Shown here: piece by piece, positions 10,664-29,715 of the stretch
How the letters are laid out: every line of letters starts with the position of its first letter
Position numbering within the stretch: the first letter of the stretch is position 1
Source of the DNA: a virus
DNA length: 29,715 bases
Virus record (IMG/VR): IMGVR_UViG_3300042987_002740
Span: 1-29,715 of that record
Reading direction: 5' to 3' (one strand)
The notes under the pieces: model-generated
What the model was told of the DNA's origin: nothing
Databases searched by the model: none
What the model saw: only the letters and a program-made list of their open reading frames with translations
Program-made: the position numbers and the translations under genes

Positions 10664-12160
10664 ATGAAAATCACAGATTTACCTGTTGTTACGCCTTCGA
10701 CTATAACTCAAAATCATGTTTTTTGTGTTGGCACGACTAGCAGCACTGAGCAATTAACACTCGCTAACTTACAAAAATGTTTCACAGGTTTAACTGCGCC
10801 ATCTTCATCTTCAATTAGTATAATAGGTGGAACTACTCCTAGTGGTATTACTGTTGGAGCTAATGGTTATGTTGGAATAGATAAAACTAATCCTCAAGTT
10901 GCATTAGATATAGGTGATATTGGATCAGCAACCGTAGCAGAAGCTAAAATAACTTCTAGAAGCGCTGGTAGACAAGCTTCTTATACTTTAAGTGATAGCG
11001 CTGTAAGTTGGAGGCACACTAAAAAAGCCAGTGATACTGATTATTATATAGAATGTTCAACTAATGGTTCTAATTATACTGGTTTTTTAAATATAGATGT
11101 TAATGGTAATGTAGGCATATTTAGCGGATCAGCTGATTTAACAAATAAATTATATGTTTCTGGTGGCGGAGTCACTTTTCAAAGTGGCGCTTCAGGTATT
11201 TTATTTGATCCGGGCTTATGCGAAATTAGAAACACTGTTGCAGGTGATATTTTATATTTAAATAAAAATACATCAGACGATGTATGTATTGGTGATAATG
11301 TTTTATATGTCGAGAATGGAGCAAATTCATATGTTGGTATTAATAATACAGCTCCAGCTTATAATTTAGATGTCAAAGGTTCTAGTGTTTTTGTTAGATT
11401 AAATAATACAAGCACAAACACAACAAGTATGATGCTTTCTAATACAAGTAGAAATGCATATTTAACTTTATTTAATAATAATATTAATTTAGGCGGATCA
11501 GCTAGTAATAGTACAGCTAATTTAGTTTATGATTGTTCAAATCAAAAATTAGGAGTGGGAACAAATAGCCCATCAGCTAAAATACATATTAAATCATCTG
11601 ATACTATTCCAGTTATAGTAGAATCTGACATTGCAACTAAAAATGAAACTTTATATATTAATAGTTATGCATCAGGACCTGTAAATGCAAATATTTGCAC
11701 ATTTGCAACAGGAACCGTAGCTTCTCCAACAAAACGATGGTCAATTGGATTATATAGTACTGGTCCATATGTTGATCAATTTGCATTTTTATTAGATGGT
11801 GGAATAAATACTTCCGCGATTAGAGCGCGTCTTACTAGAGATGGTGATTTACATATTAATGGCACATTATCTGAATCTTCTGCATTAAGATATAAGGAAA
11901 ATATTGAACCGATTGAAAATGTTCTTGAAGACGTTTGTAAATTAAATCCTGTTTCTTATAATTTAATAAATACATCTAAAAAACAATTTGGTGTTATCGC
12001 TGAAGAAGTTGATGAAATATTTCCTGACTTAGTTTGTCGAGACGGAAATAATGAAATTCAAGCGGTCAACTATACAAGATTAACTGCCGTCTTAATACAG
12101 GCTGTTAAAGAATTGCAGTCAGAAATTGAAGAGTTGAAAAAAACTAATAACAATGGCTAA
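10664..12160 (+). CDS. Tail fibre/spike with C-terminal peptidase S74 intramolecular chaperone
   Basis: This is a 498-residue trimeric-fibre-type protein. The N terminus (MKITDLPVVTPSTITQNHVF) resembles the short head domain of many phage fibres. The middle has repeats of the form VGI-x-x-T/N-P-x-x-x-L-D-I/V (for example VGIDKTNPQVALDIG, VGINNTAPAYNLDVKG and GVGTNSPSAKIHIK) that are typical of beta-helical fibre shafts. From about residue 403 there is an intramolecular chaperone domain of the endosialidase/S74 type. S406-A-L-R-Y-K411 fits the Ser-Lys dyad with five-residue spacing, and FGVIAEEVDEIFPDLV and a terminal coiled coil follow. Cleavage before S406 would release about 93 residues after trimer folding. 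The gene overlaps its successor by 8 nt. It sits between two paralogous structural genes rather than with the distal fibres, so it may form side fibres near the tail tip. Confidence 0.88.
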   Translation: MKITDLPVVTPSTITQNHVFCVGTTSSTEQLTLANLQKCFTGLTAPSSSSISIIGGTTPSGITVGANGYVGIDKTNPQVALDIGDIGSATVAEAKITSRSAGRQASYTLSDSAVSWRHTKKASDTDYYIECSTNGSNYTGFLNIDVNGNVGIFSGSADLTNKLYVSGGGVTFQSGASGILFDPGLCEIRNTVAGDILYLNKNTSDDVCIGDNVLYVENGANSYVGINNTAPAYNLDVKGSSVFVRLNNTSTNTTSMMLSNTSRNAYLTLFNNNINLGGSASNSTANLVYDCSNQKLGVGTNSPSAKIHIKSSDTIPVIVESDIATKNETLYINSYASGPVNANICTFATGTVASPTKRWSIGLYSTGPYVDQFAFLLDGGINTSAIRARLTRDGDLHINGTLSESSALRYKENIEPIENVLEDVCKLNPVSYNLINTSKKQFGVIAEEVDEIFPDLVCRDGNNEIQAVNYTRLTAVLIQAVKELQSEIEELKKTNNNG

Positions 12161-12947
12161 TTTTTTAAATTATCGAAATGTTGCTTTTAAATTAGAAGAT
12201 AAAAACTATTACGCAACAAAAGTTTCTTTATCTGCTAAAGCTAATGTCGATCCAGTCATATTAAACAATGGTTCTTTATTAAATTATGCTCCGCAAAGTA
12301 GTGTAGTTGGCAGTTTGTCTACTGATTTTTATTTGACTGGAGCATTGCCAGATTTTTTAAGGATTACTGGTTTTAATGAATCATCGATTACTGCAAATTT
12401 TGCTTCAGTAATAATATCTAATGTTTATCCAAAATCAATTAGTTTTAGTGTTGAGCCTTTTCAGCCTATTTTGATTTCAGCAGAATTTGATTGGTATGGT
12501 AATGTTAAAGTTGAAGATTTTACTTCTAATACAAATGAAGATAAAAACAATATTCAAATACCGAGTTATTTTGCTAATGGTTATCGGTCAAGTTTAACAA
12601 CGTCAAATTTAGAAGGAGTTGATAAAATATTAAGTTTTGATTATAGCGCGTCTTGTGAAAGACCTTCTTTTTTTCATATAAATGATATAATTCCTTTTAG
12701 AGTTGCCAAATTAAATAGATCTTTACAATTATCTTTAAAATCCAACGATTTAGGAGGAATATTGGATATTGATGGTAAAAATGTTAATTCAACTGTTTCT
12801 TTAAGAGATACATATGGCACTGTATTAGATACTTTTTCAATAAGCGGTATATTATTAAGTCAAAATTATGAAGTTTCAGAAGGTCAATATTTGCTAGCTT
12901 CAGCTGATATAGAACAAACAGTAACACAAAATAAAACTTTAGTATAA
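12153..12947 (+). CDS. Beta-rich tail structural protein B, probable paralog of the 9752 gene product
   Basis: This 264-residue protein has its ATG inside the last codons of the fibre gene (8 nt overlap), which indicates translational coupling. It is beta-rich, with no membrane segment. Landmarks match protein A in the same order: an N-terminal segment on a bound strand (YRNVAFKLEDKNYYATKVSL), a central ISFSVEPFQPILISAEFDWYGN, then DKILSFDYSASCERPSFFHI and PFRVAKLNRSLQLSL. Protein A has SFSISCSVGEVPQIDSQF, then DFSIDFNCPKTP and FPIEVTTSFTLEI. Overall identity is low, so the paralogy is a pattern-based judgement. A role in the tail tube or tip is inferred from the flanking lambda-like tip genes. 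Confidence 0.57.
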   Translation: MANFLNYRNVAFKLEDKNYYATKVSLSAKANVDPVILNNGSLLNYAPQSSVVGSLSTDFYLTGALPDFLRITGFNESSITANFASVIISNVYPKSISFSVEPFQPILISAEFDWYGNVKVEDFTSNTNEDKNNIQIPSYFANGYRSSLTTSNLEGVDKILSFDYSASCERPSFFHINDIIPFRVAKLNRSLQLSLKSNDLGGILDIDGKNVNSTVSLRDTYGTVLDTFSISGILLSQNYEVSEGQYLLASADIEQTVTQNKTLV

Positions 12948-14821
12948 TGAGTTACATAATATCAGGTTTAAATATACAAAATATTTCAGAATACAATTTT
13001 AATAATTCGTATTCAAAATATGATATTGTTGATTTTCAATTATTTACTGGAGCTTCTTTATCGCCAGCTTATACTGGTAATGGTCAAACTGGATTAACAA
13101 CTTGGTTTAACAATGATCTTTTAGAGTACTTTAAAACAGATACAAAATTTGATGTTACTGGATGGAGAAATTTAGTTTCTGGTAGCGGCGATTTAAATCA
13201 AACAGGCGCATTTGCTGCTACAAATCCATATGTTGATTTTAATGAAAATTATATTAATTTATTTAATGATCAAACACTAAGCGGGACTGGTTTTGCTTCT
13301 GATTCTAGAACTTTGATATTTCTTATTGAAGCTGCTGATTTAAAGAAAGTAGATCAATCACAAAAAATATTACAATTCGGAACGGATTCAACTTATGGAA
13401 AATTTTTATTAAGTGGAACAAATTCATATAATCAAGCAAAAATATTATTAGATAATACTGAATTTAATTCTGTTTCTTCTCTTTATAATGATAAAAATAT
13501 TTTTACTTTGATTCAAGATAATGCGGCAGGCACTATAAAATTAAGACAAAACGGTATTGATTTAGGAACATATTCTTCTTTTAATGCTAATTGGAAAGCG
13601 ACAAATTTTATTCTCGGCAACAATAATGATAGTGTTGATATAAAATATTATGAAGTAATTCATTTTACAGGAGTTGTCGCGGATTCACAAATAAGTGGTT
13701 ATGAAAAATATTTATATGAGAAATACTTTGATAATACGAGGTTATATTTTGCTTTTAATAATGTTTCAGCTGGAATTCAATATAGCCCTATAACCTATAC
13801 AGGAATTGGATATTGGACTCAGGACATTGATGATTTGTTTAAAATGAATTATGGTTGTAGTGCTAATTTTACATCTAATTTGTCAATGTTGCAAATGGGT
13901 GATGGTTATAAGACTAATGTAGCTCAAACTGTAAATACATTAAACTCTAAATTTAATTTAAACTACGATGGTTTAACAGATAAAGAAGCAAAATGCTTAA
14001 TAACATATTTTGAAAACTCTCCAGAAACAAAAAAGAAAAGTCTTTATGAAGGTTACAAAGGAGTAGAAATGAATTTATTTCCTCCTTATAAAAAGAATGC
14101 AGAATTATATTTTAAAAGCATTGATCATTCTACTATTTATAATGATATAAATAGTATTAAAATAGAAGCAGAATCATTATATGATAGTTCTTTGGATTAT
14201 AAAGGGATGTTGGTCGAGCTAGACGAAATCAATATAAAAACTTATCCTTCAGATAATAAATTTAATTCGATTAATTATAATGATATTTTTTACTATGATT
14301 CAGATTCTGTTAAATTAAGAGGTTATTATTTTTATACAGGTTCTGCATATAATATTGATGAGAATTCAACTATAACAACTGGTCCGTTTGTTGTTTCTCC
14401 AGTAAATAGTCCAACTGGAATAAGTTCTTGGTTTACTAAAGATTTTTATTTTAAAGGAAATATTGATTATAATATAAATTCTAGCTTGAGATTATTAAAA
14501 GGTGATTTTAAAAATTCTACGACTGAATATGACAAAGACGGAATCAATTATAATATTTTAGAATTTAATGTCGATTTTAAAAATAGATCAAACTCTGAAA
14601 CAAGAGCAATATTAAAATTTTTAGATGATAAAGCGGGATATAAAGTGTTTAAATATACTTTGCCTCAACCATATAATAAAGAAATTAACGTTTATTGTCC
14701 AGAATGGAATCATACTTATAATTTCAATAACAATAATGATATAGGTGTAAAGTTTATTGAGTTTAAAAATCCATTTGATACTGCAACAAAATTCAATACA
14801 AAACTATATTTTACTCAATGA
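12947..14821 (+). CDS. Lambda gpM-like tail tip protein with duplicated M domain and LamG-like module
   Basis: This is a 624-residue protein; lambda gpM is about 109 residues. Residues about 50-258 look like a LamG/concanavalin-type module ending in YYEVIHFTGVVADSQISGYE and KYLYEKYF, a common ending of such modules. Residues about 315-410 match the gpM family: QMGDGYKTNV (lambda has FGDGYSQR), TLNSKFNLNYDGLTDKEAKC, then ITYFENSP, FPPYKKNAELYFKS and an ending on beta strands. Residues about 510-615 repeat the pattern in a more divergent form (LLKGDF, GINYNILEFNVDF, AILKFLDDKAGYKVFKYTLP, INVYCPEWNHTYNF). gpM acts at the tail tip, where tube and tip complex meet. Start and stop overlap the neighbours (TAATG at 12945 and ATGA at 14818). 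The family call is good; the carbohydrate-binding role of the N-terminal module is inferred. Confidence 0.78.
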   Translation: MSYIISGLNIQNISEYNFNNSYSKYDIVDFQLFTGASLSPAYTGNGQTGLTTWFNNDLLEYFKTDTKFDVTGWRNLVSGSGDLNQTGAFAATNPYVDFNENYINLFNDQTLSGTGFASDSRTLIFLIEAADLKKVDQSQKILQFGTDSTYGKFLLSGTNSYNQAKILLDNTEFNSVSSLYNDKNIFTLIQDNAAGTIKLRQNGIDLGTYSSFNANWKATNFILGNNNDSVDIKYYEVIHFTGVVADSQISGYEKYLYEKYFDNTRLYFAFNNVSAGIQYSPITYTGIGYWTQDIDDLFKMNYGCSANFTSNLSMLQMGDGYKTNVAQTVNTLNSKFNLNYDGLTDKEAKCLITYFENSPETKKKSLYEGYKGVEMNLFPPYKKNAELYFKSIDHSTIYNDINSIKIEAESLYDSSLDYKGMLVELDEINIKTYPSDNKFNSINYNDIFYYDSDSVKLRGYYFYTGSAYNIDENSTITTGPFVVSPVNSPTGISSWFTKDFYFKGNIDYNINSSLRLLKGDFKNSTTEYDKDGINYNILEFNVDFKNRSNSETRAILKFLDDKAGYKVFKYTLPQPYNKEINVYCPEWNHTYNFNNNNDIGVKFIEFKNPFDTATKFNTKLYFTQ

Positions 14822-17874: not shown

Positions 17875-19710
17875 ATGTCGAATTTATTTCTTTTAAATAA
17901 TAATGAAGTTTTAGATTTTTATGAGATACATTTGAGCGATTATGAGGGTTATTTATATTTTCATGGATCTAAAAATTTTCAAAAAGATTTAATCTTTCAA
18001 GGAAAAAAATATTTATACATTCCATGTGAGGTTTCGAATTTAGAATATAATTCAGAAGGCAAAACTAATAGACCTACATTTTTGATTTCTAATATAAATA
18101 ATTATATGTCTAATTTGATGAAAGATAGAAATGATTTTATTGGTCGTAGGTTTTATAGAAAAAAAATACTTGCTAAAGATTTAGATGATGAAAATTTTGG
18201 AGGCGTTAATAAAAATTTATTGGGCGCTAGATCTTTCTCTTCTTTTATTGCAAGTGATATGTATATTATTCAGAAAAAAAATTCTGAAAGCAGAGATAAA
18301 ATTGAAATTCTTCTAACTAATGTTTTGGATTTTGAGGGTATTAGTATACCTTCAAGAAAAATATTTAATAATGCGTGTCAATGGACATACCGGGGTTGCG
18401 GTTGTAATTATGGTAAAATAAATGGTTATACAGGGCCAGATGTATATCAAAGAGAAACATTGAATGATGATTTATCTACAATAAATACTAATTTAGGATT
18501 ATCATCTAATTTAACTTATCATTTTCAAAGTTCTACTCAAACATTTTCTGGAACAACTACAATTCCATTAGAAAATCCACCTAGTACTATATTGAGTTTT
18601 GATAAATTAACTTCTTGGACTAACGCAGGCACTGCTGGTGGAAGCATAACTATATCCGGTAATCCAAAAAAATATATAAATCAAGGTAGAATGGGTGATT
18701 ATAATGGTGTTCTTTTGTCCAATAGAACTGGAGCTACAGATTCTTTAACAATTACAACAAGTAATTTAAATAGCGCTTTAACAATTTTTTATGTGTCTGA
18801 AATGGTTGATAAAATAAATAATAAAACTTCTAAAAAAGATACGTATCGCGGTTTATCTTCAACTCAAGATGGTAAATTTTTATTAGGTTATTGGAATCAT
18901 TACGAAGATGTTATGGCTTCAAAAATAGATGCTTCAAATTATGATTGGGTTAAATCAGTTGGTCCTTGGGCTCCAAATAACTTAAATAATTCTAGGGTAT
19001 ATGGAGCCATATGTCCTAATAGCTCTACAAGTACAACATATTTTATAAGAGATGGTAATATTTATGTGCAAAGAGATGGTTTTATAAATGGTTCTAATGG
19101 TCTTGGTTTTAATATTGTTGAACCTAGTGAAATTGTAGTTTATGAAATAATTATTTATAATACAACTTTGACATTAGAACAAGCAGAATATATTTCATTT
19201 TATTTGGGAAATAAATATAATTTACCTGTACCTTTTACTAAAAGTAAAACAGTAATTAAAAAGGGATCCACTTTTTTTACAGACGAAGAAAATCTCGGTT
19301 TGCCAATGGCTGATGAAAATAATAAAATGTTTTTAATTGCAAACGCAGCGAATAGCCAATTATCAACATCGGAATCTTACGGTTTAAATAATTTAATTTA
19401 TAGAGGTGATTATAATAGAAATACTCGTTATAAATTTGGTGATTTTGTAAAAATAGAGCCTCCTATTAATTTTGATTTTAATGAGGATTCCCAAATTAAC
19501 AATAATTCAATACCTGCTAGATTTTTTGTTTGTATAGATCAAAATGGATCTTTTAATGAGCATCCATTCAATTTTACAAATAAATGGAAAGAGGATAAGT
19601 GCTCCAAAAATCTTAATGGTTGTAGTTTAAGATTTAATGGTAATCAAATAGGCATTCCTTTTGGGGGTTTTCCTGGTACTGTTCAATATGAATATAAACT
19701 TCCTTCCTAA
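17875..19710 (+). CDS. Lambda gpL-like Fe-S tail tip protein with lectin-like insertion
   Basis: This is a 611-residue protein; lambda gpL is 232 residues. The N-terminal domain aligns well with gpL: EGKTNRPTFLISNI, then DRNDFIGRRFYRKKILAKDL and DENF. The C-terminal gpL domain binds a [4Fe-4S] cluster through four cysteines. Here NNACQWTYRGCGCNYG gives C168 and C177 (spacing 9, with an extra C175), and EDKCSKNLNGCSLRF gives C576 and C583 (spacing 7). Both spacings equal those in gpL. Between the pairs, where gpL has about 22 residues, there are about 400. They include a LamG-like module (about 240-452, ending YEIIIYNTTLTLEQAEYISF and YLGNKY) and a CBM5/12-like module (about 515-575, with RGDYNRNTRYKFGDFV, FFVCIDQNGSFNEHPF and KW). 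The protein probably links the gpM-like layer to the J-like hub. Confidence 0.88.
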   Translation: MSNLFLLNNNEVLDFYEIHLSDYEGYLYFHGSKNFQKDLIFQGKKYLYIPCEVSNLEYNSEGKTNRPTFLISNINNYMSNLMKDRNDFIGRRFYRKKILAKDLDDENFGGVNKNLLGARSFSSFIASDMYIIQKKNSESRDKIEILLTNVLDFEGISIPSRKIFNNACQWTYRGCGCNYGKINGYTGPDVYQRETLNDDLSTINTNLGLSSNLTYHFQSSTQTFSGTTTIPLENPPSTILSFDKLTSWTNAGTAGGSITISGNPKKYINQGRMGDYNGVLLSNRTGATDSLTITTSNLNSALTIFYVSEMVDKINNKTSKKDTYRGLSSTQDGKFLLGYWNHYEDVMASKIDASNYDWVKSVGPWAPNNLNNSRVYGAICPNSSTSTTYFIRDGNIYVQRDGFINGSNGLGFNIVEPSEIVVYEIIIYNTTLTLEQAEYISFYLGNKYNLPVPFTKSKTVIKKGSTFFTDEENLGLPMADENNKMFLIANAANSQLSTSESYGLNNLIYRGDYNRNTRYKFGDFVKIEPPINFDFNEDSQINNNSIPARFFVCIDQNGSFNEHPFNFTNKWKEDKCSKNLNGCSLRFNGNQIGIPFGGFPGTVQYEYKLPS

Positions 19711-20017
19711 AGATTTATTAAATAATTTAATGGAATTATCTAAAAATTCTAATGTTGAAATATGCGGTTTCATTAAAAATAATATATTTGTAAAATGTGA
19801 TAATTTACATCCAGATCCATTTAATTATTTTACTATTTCGCATAAAGAATATTTGAAGAACATTGATTCTATTTTATTCCATAGTCATCCTTACAAATAT
19901 AACGATAAAGGTTTTTCGGATTGGGATTTAGAAAATCAAAAATATCATTGTTTAAATATGCTGTTATACAGTGTAAATTTAAATAGATTTTTTTATAAAA
20001 CATATGATAAAGATTAA
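19688..20017 (+). CDS. Lambda gpK-like JAMM/MPN metallopeptidase, short form without NlpC/P60
   Basis: With the ATG at 19688 the protein is 109 residues and overlaps the L-like gene by 23 nt. A TTG at 19661 would add nine residues, but it is a less likely start. The JAMM/MPN signature is visible: E24 in VEICGF, then H65-S-H67-P and S77-D-W-D80, the zinc ligands and catalytic residues in family order. The loop between H67 and S77 is nine residues, where seven is usual. Lambda gpK has this domain followed by an NlpC/P60 peptidoglycan peptidase; here the gene stops after the JAMM part. gpK functions in tail tip assembly. Position between the L-like and I-like genes, with overlaps on both sides, supports the call. 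Confidence 0.78.
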   Translation: MNINFLPKDLLNNLMELSKNSNVEICGFIKNNIFVKCDNLHPDPFNYFTISHKEYLKNIDSILFHSHPYKYNDKGFSDWDLENQKYHCLNMLLYSVNLNRFFYKTYDKD

Positions 20018-20540
20018 CTTATACGGTTGTTTAGCGAAAAAACTCGGTTCATCTTGGGAGCTTGATGTCAAATCAATTATGGAGGTTTTTGAGGCTTTGG
20101 AAGCAAACAATCGTAAAGAAAATTTGTTCTTTAGAACAATGGATAAATTTTTTACACATTTTATTGTTTACATTGATGGAAAAATAATGCCGCCTCATTT
20201 ATTAAAAAGTAAATTATTAAAAAAAGACAGTGTTGTAGATATTTTACCTGTTGTTCAAGGTGGATTAGTAGGCGCTTTAATAATTATTGGCGTTGTTTTG
20301 ATAGTTTTATCTTTTGTTCTAACTAAATTACTAACGCCTAAAGAACCAGTGGATATAAAAACAAGCTCTTCTGTTTTAGGAAAGATTAAAAATGTTACTA
20401 ATAGAAATATTCCGGTTCCTATTGGTTATGGTAGATTTAGGATAGGTAGTGCGGTCATTTCAAATGATATAATTGTATTCAATGGAGCGGAAGCGCAAAC
20501 TATCAGCTCATCTGTTTTAGACATTATAAAGGGAAGTTAA
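20004..20540 (+). CDS. Lambda gpI-like tail assembly protein
   Basis: This 178-residue protein has its ATG inside the end of the JAMM gene (14 nt overlap). The first 85 residues look like a beta-grasp/ubiquitin-like domain (IKINLYGCLAKKLG, then HFIVYIDGKIMPP and DSVVDILPVVQGG), as in the gpI family. A hydrophobic segment follows at about 88-110 (GALIIIGVVLIVLSFVL), and then the conserved ending PVPIGYGRFRIGSAVISNDI at about 141-160. In lambda, gpI is needed to build the J-containing tip but is not a major part of the virion. The K-I-J order and the family-like ending make the call firm despite low overall similarity. Confidence 0.82.
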   Translation: MIKINLYGCLAKKLGSSWELDVKSIMEVFEALEANNRKENLFFRTMDKFFTHFIVYIDGKIMPPHLLKSKLLKKDSVVDILPVVQGGLVGALIIIGVVLIVLSFVLTKLLTPKEPVDIKTSSSVLGKIKNVTNRNIPVPIGYGRFRIGSAVISNDIIVFNGAEAQTISSSVLDIIKGS

Positions 20541-20543
20541 TAT

Positions 20544-23500
20544 ATGCCTTATAATAATAATCAATTTTTTGTCAAAGGATTAAATAATAAAGCTGAATAT
20601 TGGATTAATCAAGGAGGTAAAGATGGTCCTGTTTTATCTTTGCAAAGTCTTATCAGTAATATGCCTGGCTTAAAACTTGAGGAGTTAGTTAAAAAAATAG
20701 AATCAGATGAAAAATTATATTGTACAGATCTTTTATGTGAAGGCCCTATTGAAGGATTAGTTGATAAATATGGAAACGTTTTAAAATATGGCACTTCTAC
20801 AAATCCAAAAGATTCTGATGATACTATTTTAGGTAAAGGAATATATTATAATGATGTGCCGTTGATTGATTCTAAATTGAATAAATTTAATTTTGTAAGT
20901 TCTGGTTTTGAAATTGATTATGGTGAGGAAGTAAAGAATTATAATTATGGCAATTATCCATCGACTGTTTATAAATACGATCAAAAGTTATATTTATCAG
21001 AAATAGAAACTATACCGAATATCATCTATAATGGTTATTTTCAGTTTATTATAGATGAAACAAATAATTTTATTCCGATTAAGCTACCAATCAATGATTC
21101 GAATTGGTATTTTTCTAATCAATTCACTTCAAATTTTATTTATAGCTCAAAGTTTAATATTAAGAATATAGTTAACATTATCTCTTCGGCAAAAAATAAT
21201 TGTCAGGAGTTTACTCATAAAATTTATAATAAATTTTGTGATAATATTTCAATAAATCTTACGGTAAACAGTCTTTTTAATAATAATGAGAATTACTCTG
21301 CTTCGTTTGCTATTGAAATATCGGAAGATTTTTCTTCGCGGAGATATTACTGTATTGTTGCGATAACTGGATTTGCAAAAAGTGCGGCTACTATTTCTAT
21401 TCCAATAGATTTAAATTTAAATTCAGTTGAAAATAATAATTATTATGTTAAAGTTTTTTCTCTTACCAAAAAAATAGATCCCGCTAATACAAATCTGGCG
21501 TCAGTTTTTTGTGATTTTTCTGTTTCAAGCGTTGTGGAAAGAATTTTAACTAAAGGATATTTCGTTTATCCATACTCTTGCACAGTAAAAACAGTAGTTA
21601 GTTCTAGACATTTTAATTCAGATCCAAATAGAACATTTGATCTTAAATTATTAAAAATAAAAACACCTTCTAATTACGATCCTGAAGCTAGAGAATATAA
21701 TGGTAATTGGAATGGTAAATTTAATAACTTTTTGAGATGGACAGATAATCCAGCTTGGGTATTTTTTGATATTTGCACAAATTCTCGTTATGGTTTAGGT
21801 AATGGTTTAATCAATGAATCTGACATAAACAAATGGGAATTATATAAACTATCTCAGTATTGTGATGACTTGGTTAAAGTAAATGTGCCTTATTCTGAGA
21901 GTGAAGATTCTTTTGAAATGTATTATACGCAAAAAAATAAGATATATATTCAAAAAAATAATAGATCTTTAGAGTTTATTAAAAAGAAATATAAGCCTGT
22001 TTATGATACTGTTACAGATGTTTTTTCAAATGACTCTTTTTATGAATCATTGATTTTTTTGTACGATATGAAAAATGCAGACGGCGATGTTGAAAAAAAT
22101 TATAAAAAAATTATTTGGTCTGTTAAAGAGGTTAATCTTTTTCAAGATGGACAATCTTCAGAAGTTTCAACTGGAGGCGGAACACATTTTGAAATTCAAT
22201 TAATAAATGATTTTGGACCTAAATCTTTTTTTGAGACCGATTTAACTGGTTTATTAAATAGCTTTTTGTCTACAAGCGTGAATACATTTATTAAAAATTC
22301 TTCAATTTTGTCTAGAGTTTCAATCGGTGATAAAAACACACAGGGTGCGGCTAAAGCTTTTATTTTAACAAATATTGCTAATTCTGTGAAAAATAATACT
22401 TCGCTTTACAATAATATTTTGAATAAAAATATTGTCGATGATGATTTATTTGTTAGTAATGATGATTTTACTGTAAATGTTAACTCAAGTATTAATGGTA
22501 AATGTTTGCCTCGAAGTAAAAATTATAGAGACCCTTTAGAGCCTAGATTTTCTTGTAACTTATTAATAGATAACGAAACTAATTCATTGAAATTGTTATC
22601 TGATATATGTTCTATTTTTAGAGGAATATCTTATTATAAAAATAATTACATAGGAACTACTTACGATGTTCAAAAGCCAGTTGTTTATTTATTTAATAAT
22701 TCAAACGTTAAAGATGGAGCGTTTTTCTATTCTAGTGGAAGTTTGGAGGGGTTATATAGTGTTGCAAAAATTTCTTTCAAAGATCAATATGATAATTTCA
22801 ATGATTCTGTTGAAATTGTTGAAGATGCAGAATTGTTAAAAAATTATGGCGTTATAATTAAAGAAATTTTAGGTTTTGGTATTACATCTAGAGATCAAGC
22901 TAGAAGAATTGGTGAATGGTTATTAATGACAAATAGATTAGAGAATCAATCTGTAAATTTTTCTACAGATCTTCAAGGGATTCTATTAAAACCAGGAGAT
23001 GTTATTGAAATAAAAGATCAATACAAGAATAATTCTACTCTTCAGGGTAGAGTGGTAAATGTTGATTTAGATGATAATTCTATTGTTGTGGATAGGCAAT
23101 TAAATTTAAATTTAATAGGTCAGAAGATAAAATTTATTTTTTCTAATTATGTTGTGGATTCTTCTTTTAATGGTATTACAGCCACGCAAGCCAATAATAT
23201 TCAAATACTAGAATTAAAAATTAAAAATATCGATAACAGCACTAATAAGGTTTGGTTTGATGCTGATTATAATTATTCTGATTTTAACAAAATTATTTCA
23301 TCTACTGTTTTTATTATCGATGATTTAAATATTAATAATAATTATATTTATTATAAAATAGTCAGTATATCTGAAACCAATAATAATGAATATAGCGTAT
23401 TTGCTATTAAGTATGATTCTTCTAAATATACATATTTAGATAAAAATTTATTGCAGAAAGATAATGATATTATTAATAATACTATTTCGTACTCAAATAT

Positions 23501-23924
23501 TGACTTTCTGCAAGAGATTACAATTCCTATCAATCAATATATTGTACCGTATAGCATAAATGCTGATCAAGTTCCAAAAGTTGCATATGATTATTCATTT
23601 ACTGAACAAACAACTTTATTATCTAAGGTTGCTGGTGCAGCTTATTCTTATATAAATATATCATTTTCTAATATTTTTAATTATATAAATAATAGTAATA
23701 GTGAATATTATAAAAAAATACAATTGGTTTTAAATGATAGAGGTGGTTTATTATGTGTAATTAATTTAAAAAATCAATCTTTGAAATTTAAAATTACGGC
23801 TGATAACGTGGGTGATAAAAACGTATTTATGGGTCGTTTTGGTATTAACGCTTTTTCAAATAATGCCTCTGCATATATAAAACTTTATTTGTTTGATAAA
23901 AATAATAAACTAATTAATATATAA
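20544..23924 (+). CDS. Lambda gpJ-like central tail tip protein (host attachment hub)
   Basis: This 1,126-residue protein is close to lambda gpJ (1,132). Hallmarks run in order. DLLCEGPIEGLVDKYG lies near residue 65 and is followed by YYNDVPLIDS. NPAWVFFDICTNSRYGLGNG at about 408-427 and INKWELYKLSQYCDDLV follow. Residues about 670-800 hold EPRFSCNLLIDNETNSLKLL, then DICSIFRGISYY and SYAKISF-type strands. RDQARRIGEWLLMTNRLENQ and LLKPGDVIEIKD follow at about 785-820. gpJ trimers form the conical tip, contact the receptor and open for DNA passage. Here the protein ends soon after the hub domains, with a mostly beta, Asn/Ile-rich C terminus from about 830. The FnIII-rich part of lambda gpJ is not obvious, and a candidate lies in the next gene. 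Confidence 0.9.
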   Translation: MPYNNNQFFVKGLNNKAEYWINQGGKDGPVLSLQSLISNMPGLKLEELVKKIESDEKLYCTDLLCEGPIEGLVDKYGNVLKYGTSTNPKDSDDTILGKGIYYNDVPLIDSKLNKFNFVSSGFEIDYGEEVKNYNYGNYPSTVYKYDQKLYLSEIETIPNIIYNGYFQFIIDETNNFIPIKLPINDSNWYFSNQFTSNFIYSSKFNIKNIVNIISSAKNNCQEFTHKIYNKFCDNISINLTVNSLFNNNENYSASFAIEISEDFSSRRYYCIVAITGFAKSAATISIPIDLNLNSVENNNYYVKVFSLTKKIDPANTNLASVFCDFSVSSVVERILTKGYFVYPYSCTVKTVVSSRHFNSDPNRTFDLKLLKIKTPSNYDPEAREYNGNWNGKFNNFLRWTDNPAWVFFDICTNSRYGLGNGLINESDINKWELYKLSQYCDDLVKVNVPYSESEDSFEMYYTQKNKIYIQKNNRSLEFIKKKYKPVYDTVTDVFSNDSFYESLIFLYDMKNADGDVEKNYKKIIWSVKEVNLFQDGQSSEVSTGGGTHFEIQLINDFGPKSFFETDLTGLLNSFLSTSVNTFIKNSSILSRVSIGDKNTQGAAKAFILTNIANSVKNNTSLYNNILNKNIVDDDLFVSNDDFTVNVNSSINGKCLPRSKNYRDPLEPRFSCNLLIDNETNSLKLLSDICSIFRGISYYKNNYIGTTYDVQKPVVYLFNNSNVKDGAFFYSSGSLEGLYSVAKISFKDQYDNFNDSVEIVEDAELLKNYGVIIKEILGFGITSRDQARRIGEWLLMTNRLENQSVNFSTDLQGILLKPGDVIEIKDQYKNNSTLQGRVVNVDLDDNSIVVDRQLNLNLIGQKIKFIFSNYVVDSSFNGITATQANNIQILELKIKNIDNSTNKVWFDADYNYSDFNKIISSTVFIIDDLNINNNYIYYKIVSISETNNNEYSVFAIKYDSSKYTYLDKNLLQKDNDIINNTISYSNIDFLQEITIPINQYIVPYSINADQVPKVAYDYSFTEQTTLLSKVAGAAYSYINISFSNIFNYINNSNSEYYKKIQLVLNDRGGLLCVINLKNQSLKFKITADNVGDKNVFMGRFGINAFSNNASAYIKLYLFDKNNKLINI

Positions 23925-27251: not shown

Positions 27252-29715
27252 ATGGCTTTAACCACTGGATTACAATTACCATTTGGTATTCAACCTGTTA
27301 ACCCTTGTCCGGTTGACAGTTGGTCTGGTCCATATACTGGTGCCAATGCAGCAGCTGCGATAAGTGCAGCAAATGCAGCCATCCCACAAGCCATTCGTTT
27401 TCAATCGATGCAGGTTCGATTGATTATAAATAACGTTTCATATATTTATTGGTATAGAGACGGGGTTACTGATTCTGATTTAGTTGAATTAAATGCTGCT
27501 ACAGATTTTGCTCAAGATGCAGAAAGATTGATTAGGACTTTTAATCAGTCTAGTCATGCATTTGTAACTGGAGATTTATTGGGTTTCAATGATACTACTG
27601 GTTGGTTTAAGGCAAAAGCAGATTCTGTTGAAACAGCTGAAGTAGTTGGTATTGTTCAACATATTAGCGGTAGTAATTTTGATTTAGTTTATAATGGCAG
27701 AGTAACAGGTTTAAGCTCATTAAATGAGGGTGATGTTTATTTTCTTTCGCCTTATACTTCAGGTGCGTATACAGATATAGAGCCTACATTTGTAGGACAA
27801 GTAACAAAACCTGTGCTTTTTGCTCTTTCGTCTACTGAAGCTAATTTTATAATTTATAGAGGATTTGAAATAACTTCTAATAATGGTGGTCAAACAAGCA
27901 GTGGAACAAGCGGTTCTTCTGGATCTAGCAATGGTTCTTCGGGAACAAGTGGATCTTCAGGAACAAGTGGATCATCTGGAACAAGTGGCTCATCAGGAAA
28001 TACTGGATCTTCTGGAACAAGTGGTTCATCGGGTCAAAATGGTTCTTCAGGTACAAGTGGATCATCTGGTCTTAACGGTTCATCTGGAACAAGTGGATCT
28101 TCTGGTACAAGTGGATCATCAGGAACCAGTGGGACAAATGGTTCTGGCGGATCTTCAGGAACTAGTGGATCTTCTGGAACAAGTGGATCTTCAGGAACAA
28201 GTGGATCATCAGGAACTAGTGGAACAAATGGTTCTGGAGGATCTTCAGGTACAAGTGGTTCTTCTGGTACAAGAGGTTCTTCAGGAACTAGCGGATCTTC
28301 AGGAACAAGTGGTTCTTCAGGAACTTGTGGATCTTCAGGAACTAATGGTTCTAATGGATCTTCTGGCACATCAGGTGGAAATGGTTCGGCTGGGTCTCCC
28401 GGAACTCCTGGATCATCGGGAACAAGTGGATCTTCAGGCACAAGTGGATCTTCAGGAACAAGTGGATCTTCAGGAACAAGCGGATCTTCAGGAACAAGTG
28501 GATCTTCAGGAACTTGTGGATCTTCAGGAACTAATGGTTCTAATGGATCTTCTGGCACATCAGGTGGAAATGGTTCGGCTGGGTCTCCCGGAACTCCCGG
28601 ATCTTCGGGCACAAGTGGATCTTCAGGAACAAGTGGATCTTCAGGAACTAGTGGAACAAATGGTTCTGGAGGATCTTCAGGCACAAGTGGATCTTCAGGA
28701 ACAAGTGGATCTTCTGGAACAAGCGGATCTTCAGGAACAAGTGGTTCTTCAGGAACAAGTGGATCTTCAGGAACTAATGGTTCTAATGGATCTTCTGGCA
28801 CATCAGGTGGAAATGGTTCGGCTGGATCTCCCGGATCATCGGGAACAAGTGGATCTTCAGGAATAAGTGGATCATCAGGAACAAGTGGATCTTCAGGAAC
28901 TAGTGGGTCTTCAGGAACTTGTGGATCTTCAGGAACTAATGGTTCCAATGGATCTTCTGGCACATCAGGTGGAAATGGTTCGGCTGGATCTCCCGGAACT
29001 CCCGGATCTTCGGGCACAAGTGGATCTTCAGGAACAAGTGGATCTTCAGGAACTAGTGGAACAAATGGTTCTGGAGGATCTTCAGGTACAAGTGGTACTT
29101 CTCCAACAGGTTTAGTGGCATCGAATTATGTAGTTCAAGGAAAATTAAATGCTGATCAAACAATTGCGAGTGGATCTGATGTTTTGATTGAATTCGTAGA
29201 TGATTTTGATCCTAATAATTGGTGGGATCCTACATCAAAAAGATTTACTCCAACTATTCAAGGTTATTATATAATAGCTGTTGGCGCATGGTTTTCTGAT
29301 CCCGGCTCTACTAATAGCCAAATGAATTTGCAGGCTAGAAAAAATGGTAATACTTTTGCTATTTCTCAAGAACCGAATAACTCTTCTGGAACTGGGCAAT
29401 CTCTTTGTCTTACGAAAATAGTTTATTTTAATGGTTCAACCGATTATGCTGATTTCACAGTATATCAAAGCACTGGTGTTAATAGAACTTTACAATATGG
29501 AACAACTTCTGGATCTGGAACATGGTTTTCGGCTTCATTAATTGTTGGAGGAGGTAGTTCTGGAACATCGGGTTCTTCTGGTACAACAGGATCTTCAGGA
29601 ACAAGTGGATCTTCAGGAACTAATGGTTCTAATGGATCTTCTGGCACATCAGGTGGAAATGGTTCGGCTGGATCTCCCGGAACTCCCGGATCTTCGGGCA
29701 CAAGTGGATCTTCAG
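27252..29715 (+). CDS. Collagen-like/C1q-like tail adhesin, 3' end beyond window
   Basis: An open frame starts at ATG 27252 after the leader TAAAATAATAT and stays open to the right edge (821 complete codons). Residues 1-217 form a fibre head domain (SYIYWYRDGVTDSDLVELN, then TGDLLGFNDTTGWFKAKADS and VVGIVQHISG). Residues 218-617 are collagen-like: 133 Gly-X-Y triplets, mainly GSS and GTS, with a single Asn interruption. Residues about 623-767 look like a C1q/TNF-type jelly roll (NNWWDPTSKRFTPTIQGYYI, then KNGNTFAIS, YFNGSTDYADFTVYQS and TWFSASLIVGG). From residue 768 Gly-X-Y repeats resume up to the window edge. Few X-Y positions are proline, so stability would have to come from trimerising domains. 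It is probably a trimeric distal adhesin. Confidence 0.87.
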   Translation, partial: MALTTGLQLPFGIQPVNPCPVDSWSGPYTGANAAAAISAANAAIPQAIRFQSMQVRLIINNVSYIYWYRDGVTDSDLVELNAATDFAQDAERLIRTFNQSSHAFVTGDLLGFNDTTGWFKAKADSVETAEVVGIVQHISGSNFDLVYNGRVTGLSSLNEGDVYFLSPYTSGAYTDIEPTFVGQVTKPVLFALSSTEANFIIYRGFEITSNNGGQTSSGTSGSSGSSNGSSGTSGSSGTSGSSGTSGSSGNTGSSGTSGSSGQNGSSGTSGSSGLNGSSGTSGSSGTSGSSGTSGTNGSGGSSGTSGSSGTSGSSGTSGSSGTSGTNGSGGSSGTSGSSGTRGSSGTSGSSGTSGSSGTCGSSGTNGSNGSSGTSGGNGSAGSPGTPGSSGTSGSSGTSGSSGTSGSSGTSGSSGTSGSSGTCGSSGTNGSNGSSGTSGGNGSAGSPGTPGSSGTSGSSGTSGSSGTSGTNGSGGSSGTSGSSGTSGSSGTSGSSGTSGSSGTSGSSGTNGSNGSSGTSGGNGSAGSPGSSGTSGSSGISGSSGTSGSSGTSGSSGTCGSSGTNGSNGSSGTSGGNGSAGSPGTPGSSGTSGSSGTSGSSGTSGTNGSGGSSGTSGTSPTGLVASNYVVQGKLNADQTIASGSDVLIEFVDDFDPNNWWDPTSKRFTPTIQGYYIIAVGAWFSDPGSTNSQMNLQARKNGNTFAISQEPNNSSGTGQSLCLTKIVYFNGSTDYADFTVYQSTGVNRTLQYGTTSGSGTWFSASLIVGGGSSGTSGSSGTTGSSGTSGSSGTNGSNGSSGTSGGNGSAGSPGTPGSSGTSGSS
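27903..29102 (+). repeat. Collagen-like tandem repeat array 1 (18-nt units)
   Basis: The 1,200-nt array is built mainly from the 18-nt unit GGATCTTCAGGAACAAGT (Gly-Ser-Ser-Gly-Thr-Ser) with third-position variants. A longer block of about 75 nt, encoding GTNGSNGSSGTSGGNGSAG and then a GSP (usually with GTP), recurs near 28338, 28527, 28770 and 28932. The copies are nearly identical at DNA level, which points to recent duplication rather than old protein-level repetition. The third copy lacks the GTP triplet. Frame is preserved throughout apart from one extra Asn codon at 27930. Confidence 0.95.
29118..29552 (+). other. C1q/TNF-like jelly-roll domain between collagen-like arrays
   Basis: Residues about 623-767 of the 27252 product show the usual C1q-like progression: an early strand (VLIEFVDDFDPNNWWDP), then FTPTIQGYYIIAVGAWF, then a KNG turn, then FNGSTDYADFTVYQSTG and a final strand ending in SASLIVGG. 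Collagen-like stalks with C1q-like heads are known in animals and in bacterial and phage adhesins, where the head forms trimers. Here repeats also follow the domain, so it may work as an internal trimerisation node or as one of several heads. Confidence 0.72.
29553..29715 (+). repeat. Collagen-like tandem repeat array 2, continues beyond window
   Basis: Gly-X-Y coding repeats resume directly after the C1q-like domain and run to the window edge. They include a further copy of the longer block, starting near 29616, that is almost identical to the copies in array 1 more than 600 nt away. The C1q-like domain is therefore embedded between two arrays that share recent sequence. Confidence 0.93.

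Follow-up and report, generated by a model that had tools for sequence, protein, structure and literature searches.

The stretch of viral DNA analysed here (the window; 29,715 nucleotides, IMG/VR record IMGVR_UViG_3300042987_002740) carries a 611-aa ORF at 17875-19710, and the region under study, 18376-19623, lies inside this ORF. The features of the gene and its neighbourhood are the following.

12947..14821, + strand: homologue of gpM (distal tail), much extended at its N-terminus (PF05939 matched at residues 500-603 of 624, E 1.5e-13)
17875..19710, + strand: gpL homologue (tail-tip hub protein), 611 aa (PF05100, E 1.6e-35; PHROG 18, E 7.7e-44; lambda gpL 8iyk_L, E 9.9e-19)
17908..18354, + strand: N-terminal beta-sandwich (hub domain I), about residues 12-160 (first PF05100 stretch, E 5e-30; pLDDT mostly 80-95)
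18376..18411, + strand: first Fe-S half, C168-QWTYRG-C175-G-C177-NY, spacing 9 (alignment with lambda; C168 and C177 invariant in 78 relatives)
18439..19263, + strand: insert 1, LamG/concanavalin A-like jelly roll by prediction, residues 189-463 (AlphaFold2; Foldseek against PDB and BFVD; 28% mean orthologue identity)
19297..19332, + strand: landmark GLPMADENNKMF, residues 475-486, the counterpart of lambda GPAVADEYDQPT (51 relatives give the consensus GxPxADxNDKxF; loop listing)
19375..19593, + strand: insert 2, putative CBM5/12-like module, about residues 501-573 (YRGDYNRNTRYKFGDFVK...FFVCI...P....W; same module in dozens of relatives; weak profile matches)
19600..19623, + strand: second Fe-S half, C576-SKNLNG-C583, spacing 7 (aligned with lambda Cys205/Cys212; D574, C576, C583 and R586 invariant in 78 relatives)
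19657..19680, + strand: PFGGFPGT motif at the C-terminus, residues 595-602, common to other gpL proteins (alignment)
19661..20017, + strand: short gpK-like protein whose listed start falls within gpL (PHROG 30, E 3.4e-9)
20004..20540, + strand: gpI homologue (PHROG 32, E 2.2e-23)
20544..23924, + strand: gpJ homologue, central fibre/hub partner (PHROG 31, E 1.9e-102; PF13550, E 2e-12)

In Pfam searches two stretches of the 611-aa ORF that lie apart matched PF05100 (Phage minor tail protein L). Searched on their own, the N-terminal 192 residues gave E 5e-30, covering residues 26-180, and the C-terminal 150 residues gave E 7e-5. When solved structures were searched with phmmer, lambda gpL (8iyk_L, E 9.9e-19) was aligned in two parts as well, with residues 15-180 corresponding to lambda 23-185 and residues 571-599 to lambda 200-224. 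The protein shares with lambda gpL (PF05100; PDB 8iyk, 8k35) hub domain I, defined for lambda in PMC10721106, the cysteine spacings of 9 and 7, the C-terminal FGGF and the gene order M-L-K-I-J. Indeed, homologues of gpM, gpL, gpK, gpI and gpJ follow one another as in the order H-M-L-K-I-J, with two extra ORFs between gpM and gpL. With the gpM, gpK, gpI and gpJ homologues as neighbours of gpL, this part of the window is the tail-tip operon of a lambda-type siphophage fragment. Thus, by sequence comparison, the window protein is confirmed as belonging to gpL/PF05100 tail tip protein L. A phmmer comparison of the gpM homologue with the gpL of the window found no sequence similarity between the two. 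The gpK-like protein has at most 118 aa, about the size of the N-terminal metalloprotease-like part, and an NlpC/P60 match was not found in it.

The cysteines of the window gpL are C51, C168, C175, C177, C380, C553, C576 and C583. The original prediction had located C168/C177 and C576/C583 within sequence matching both halves of the gpL C-terminal domain, about 400 residues apart, and this proved accurate: the C168 codon starts at 18376, the C583 codon ends at 19623, and we counted 398 residues between the pairs. When the insert is left out, C168/C177 align with lambda Cys173/Cys182 and C576/C583 with Cys205/Cys212, the four residues modelled as ligands of the lambda [4Fe-4S] cluster (PMC10721106). 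The spacings of 9 and 7 are found in the contexts C-x-W-x-YRG-xx-C-x-Y and D-x-C-SK-x-L-x-GC. In lambda, however, only 22 residues separate Cys182 from Cys205, and they hold no extra domain. In the alignment of 78 relatives nine columns only are invariant, namely D104, R161, C168, Y172, C177, D574, C576, C583 and R586. The extra cysteine C175, for which a possible change of the cluster had been suggested, occupies the position of lambda D180, the first x of YRGxxC. Of 132 relatives, 15 have a cysteine at this position and 8 have it one residue earlier (YRC), and two close orthologues have Ala and His at the C175 position. The suggestion is therefore not supported; the sequences give no evidence of a role for C175, which is a lineage trait, an occasional extra cysteine that shows no sign of acting as a ligand.

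The native loop between the lambda pairs is CGYSGPAVADEYDQPTSDITKDKC, and many expanded gpL proteins retain its GPAVADEYDQPT part in the form GxPxADxNDKxF. In the window gpL the jelly roll lies before GLPMADENNKMF and the CBM-like module after it, and many relatives have insert 2 alone, with short linkers elsewhere. The survival of a part of the native loop at residues 475-486 between the modules implies two insertion points rather than one, so that the modules do lie between the cysteine pairs as had been proposed, but not at a single site.

Two AlphaFold2 models, built from 51 and 78 sequences, reached a mean pLDDT of 81-82 and a pTM of 0.65. The N-terminal sandwich was predicted confidently and was followed by a confident all-beta domain with its first strand at 189-195 and its last at 457-463, then by a second small beta module at about 501-573; a helix was predicted downstream of C576. 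In both models the pLDDT fell below 50 over residues 157-176, a stretch that contains C168, and the deeper alignment (78 versus 51 sequences) brought no gain in confidence at the first cysteine pair.

The LamG-like character of the large insert was upheld by fold and not by sequence profiles. Foldseek matched it to ConA-like lectin domains in the PDB (prob 1.00, TMt up to 0.71), and several matches in the viral library BFVD are named 'Concanavalin A-like lectin/glucanases superfamily'. No LamG or ConA-like Pfam family matched the window protein within a limit of E 10, the insert alone had no relevant Pfam match and no tblastn match among 50,697 phage records, and the insert profile matched none of the PDB sequences. 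We therefore assign a ConA-like jelly-roll fold to insert 1 from the predicted model, and sugar binding by it is putative. Insert 1 also had many matches to lectin-like regions of clostridial neurotoxins and of trypanosomal sialidases, at about 10% identity; these reflect the jelly-roll fold that the proteins have in common and do not indicate a toxin. The resemblance of insert 2 to CBM5/12 is weak. PF02839 (CBM_5_12) had no match in the window protein and was found in 2 of 51 relatives, with a best E of 0.0047, and sub-threshold PDB matches pointed to modules of chitin-oligosaccharide deacetylases. Chitin-binding CBM5/12 modules usually have an exposed Trp pair. In insert 2 this pair is seemingly replaced by FFVCI, and for this reason a sugar ligand cannot be assumed.

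The same gene occurs on one identical contig and on one contig that is 98% identical, and in the latter 6 of the 28 substitutions in gpL alter the protein. In viral_contigs the single-protein scans gave two near-identical contigs and no others, and in genome_contigs none. Moreover, seven diverged orthologues have the same two-module layout with the landmark kept. Together with the identical and 98%-identical copies, these orthologues show that the layout is neither due to chance nor an assembly artefact. Several hundred residues interrupting a conserved domain could suggest a mobile genetic element (an intein or similar) or a misassembly, but there is next to no chance that this is the explanation: the frame is continuous, no splicing or endonuclease domain was found with Pfam, the changes in the 98%-identical copy are mostly synonymous, and the seven orthologues share the insert around the same landmark. 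Intein and misassembly were thus rejected as already refuted by the orthologues, and a frameshift was rejected alongside them. Mean pairwise identity among the window gpL and the seven orthologues was highest in the two cysteine halves (75% and 73%), followed by the hub domain at 66%, the landmark region (466-488) at 61%, the CBM-like module at 51% and the jelly roll at 28%. The jelly roll is hence the fastest-changing part of gpL in this group, and its 28% against the 73-75% of the Fe-S halves is the pattern that would be expected of a receptor- or glycan-facing part.

The original prediction had called for a search for homologues with insertions at this point, and they were found in number. 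The first pattern scan used DNA encoding W-x-x-D-x-C-x-K-x-L-x-G-C, which selects for a second pair preceded by Trp and so gives a biased sample; at least 118 ORFs matched the gpL profile, and nearly all had expanded loops. The second scan used the first pair alone and is free of selection on the second pair. Among the matches listed, 107 ORFs were measurable, 72 with the canonical spacing of 22-23, 6 with 29-41 and 29 with 95-410. After removal of near-duplicates and incomplete ORFs 61 were left among the matches listed (35 canonical, 3 intermediate and 23 with more than 50 residues, four of these with more than 200). These fractions are rough, the samples being the matches listed from both pattern scans. 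As 23 of the 61 non-redundant relatives listed exceed 50 residues, loop length does not define the gpL family; a loop of about 22 residues is typical of it, and the 398 residues of the window gpL depart from this. In the PMC13243795 paper, on LSH1, the C-terminal region of gpL is termed hypervariable.

A homologue lacking one of the pairs, which would have spoken against the Fe-S knot as a display scaffold, was looked for and not encountered among the matches listed. Each homologue sample was fetched via one cysteine pair, and the informative part is that the other pair was always present as well: both were kept in 134 of 134 non-redundant complete homologues among the matches listed, with loops from 22 to more than 570 residues. 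PMC13243795, citing Tam et al. 2013, reports some gpL relatives without the cluster altogether. The domains in the loop are varied. In three relatives (L147, L194, L186) a D-mannose-binding B_lectin domain lies between the pairs (E 1.3e-6 to 4.6e-4, below Pfam's own cut-off), and in another (L089) a PA14 domain (E 1.7e-6, above the Pfam cut-off). Quite different, partly coiled-coil-looking inserts occupy the same loop in L180 and in the cultured Synechococcus phage S-CBS4. The S-CBS4 protein, gp036 (465 aa), is like the window protein a gpL homologue with separated pairs, 261 residues apart, whereas its insert is unrelated and no ConA-like or CBM-like module was recognised in it.

Insertions were also seen elsewhere in gpL. 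In five gpL ORFs of about 720-800 aa (L022, L105, L203, L055, L080) the second pair is separated from the PFGGFP end by several hundred residues, and from these sequences that stretch can be taken as a further insertion place. In four others (L030, L031, L059, L119) about 340 residues are inserted within hub domain I, between profile positions of about 117 and 123.

A domain between the cysteine pairs has precedents in other hub proteins. In the RcGTA hub gp13 the ion-binding domain is split (143-167 + 250-263) with an oligosaccharide-binding domain (168-249) between the parts, and the Fe-S cluster is visible (PMC7296036). The R4C hub is split likewise (142-161 + 244-266, with an oligosaccharide-binding domain at 162-243), and its cluster was seen by cryo-EM (PMC10276861). 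In JBD30 gp50 a putative metal ion is coordinated by Cys147/156/238/245 (PMC11445458). We confirmed these spacings on the genes (R4C cysteines 147/157/244/251; JBD30 147/156/238/245), with about 80 residues between the pairs. Like the window gpL, these hubs have four cysteines with a stretch of sequence between the pairs. They differ in belonging to the PF09931 N-terminal family and in having a single small domain, whereas the window protein is a true gpL with two modules and about 400 residues. The family of these hubs is PF09931 + PF09356 and not PF05100, and PF09931 is present in R4C and JBD30. PF09931 had no Pfam match in the window protein, and PF09356 was reached weakly, by 11 of 51 gpL relatives. 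A profile comparison of gpL with the R4C and JBD30 hubs (two hub sequences) aligned the second cysteine pair alone, with negligible probability. The RcGTA-type feature of a sugar-binding-type domain between the cysteine pairs is found in the window gpL by fold only. By analogy, therefore, the window gpL would work like the RcGTA-type hubs without being a member of them.

These hubs also bear on the alternative that the four cysteines hold no [4Fe-4S] cluster but form disulfides or bind another metal, the two halves being the ends of a multidomain fibre-like protein. The low AlphaFold2 confidence at the first pair and the modelling of only a putative metal ion at the equivalent JBD30 site would fit this alternative. 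Nevertheless, we consider it quite improbable, given that the four cysteines and their neighbours Y172, D574 and R586 are invariant across insert lengths and that the cluster is retained in RcGTA and R4C, where a domain is inserted too.

Taken as a whole, the window protein is probably a gpL hub subunit of the lambda type whose surface loop between the Fe-S halves has grown at two points, with the ConA-like jelly roll at one and the CBM5/12-like module at the other. The four cysteines would most likely still meet around one [4Fe-4S] cluster, clipping the polypeptide at the base of the loop. The modules would then project as loops from the outside of the tail tip, in three copies per tail, and could contact polysaccharide on the cell surface before the final receptor is engaged by gpJ. 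Counting against this explanation are the pLDDT below 50 around C168, the Pfam searches, which gave no significant match to either module in the window protein, the apparent replacement of the Trp pair in insert 2, and the gpL relatives reported to have no cluster.

The modules may alternatively be displayed but serve structural or protein-binding purposes, as spacers, as contacts to the extended gpM or gpJ, or as sites where other fibres dock. Folds of the ConA-like and CBM-like kinds can mediate contacts between proteins, the Pfam searches returned no CBM or lectin match in the window protein, and the inserts of S-CBS4 and L180 in the same loop are of a quite different kind. However, known or likely sugar-binding families (B_lectin, PA14, CBM_5_12) recur at the site, oligosaccharide binding is ascribed to the counterparts in RcGTA and R4C, and the jelly roll is the fastest-evolving part, which makes a purely structural or protein-binding function unlikely, though less so than the loss of the cluster. 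By comparison, a display role is supported most strongly by the recurrence of unrelated sugar-binding-type domains (ConA-like, CBM5/12-like, B_lectin, PA14) in one loop. The proposal that the Fe-S knot acts as a scaffold displaying such modules from the tail tip thus appears well supported by comparison, because the pairs are kept at every loop length and because RcGTA and R4C provide a precedent; the architecture is less novel than had been implied.

The same principle, a conserved tail-end protein that displays CBMs in loops, is found in the 'evolved Dit' proteins of Lactobacillus, lactococcal and streptococcal phages, where CBMs are inserted in loops (PMC7291167); those, however, are distal tail proteins and have no Fe-S site. 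The principle of a domain between the cysteine pairs is already known from RcGTA and R4C, with similar spacing in JBD30, and the window gpL is a larger version of this arrangement. New here are the insertion at two points on either side of a conserved landmark, the variety of modules, and the frequency of long loops in uncultured phages together with their near absence from cultured ones in the searches made, the cultured phage collection having yielded almost no expanded-loop gpL. A literature search of open-licence papers found no description of LamG- or CBM-bearing gpL proteins.

What the Fe-S cluster does in gpL has been described as uncharacterised (PMC10721106). The cluster site stays unchanged across loops of 22 to more than 500 residues that hold different sugar-binding-type domains; this suggests a role as a structural clip, an idea that thereby becomes testable for gpL. 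A more far-reaching and distinctly tentative possibility is that the Fe-S knot of gpL serves generally as a docking clip whose two loops flanking the GxPxADxND landmark take interchangeable lectin-type modules, so that uncultured lambda-tailed phages would have much of their diversity in host recognition there and not in gpJ or the side fibres. If so, the cluster would be a staple holding gpL in its fold irrespective of the insert. The inter-pair loop is, moreover, a recognisable place in which to seek adhesion modules in uncultured phages.

Further observations were made in the rest of the window. In the gpM homologue (12947-14821) only the C-terminus (500-603 of 624) matches PF05939, and the long N-terminal part reads like another ConA-like domain, with the end motif VDIKYYEVIHFTGVVADSQISGYEKYLYEKY; through this extension the distal tail ring, too, may carry a lectin-like module. 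The ORF at 10664-12160, between the tape measure and gpM genes, encodes a structural protein with a C-terminal Peptidase_S74 (endosialidase-type) chaperone domain. At 27253-29715 an open protein with long collagen-like Gly-X-Y repeats (GTSGSS units) runs off the 3' end, and the listed ORFs at 27883-28866 (+) and 28034-29017 (-) are out-of-frame artefacts of this collagen-like repeat.
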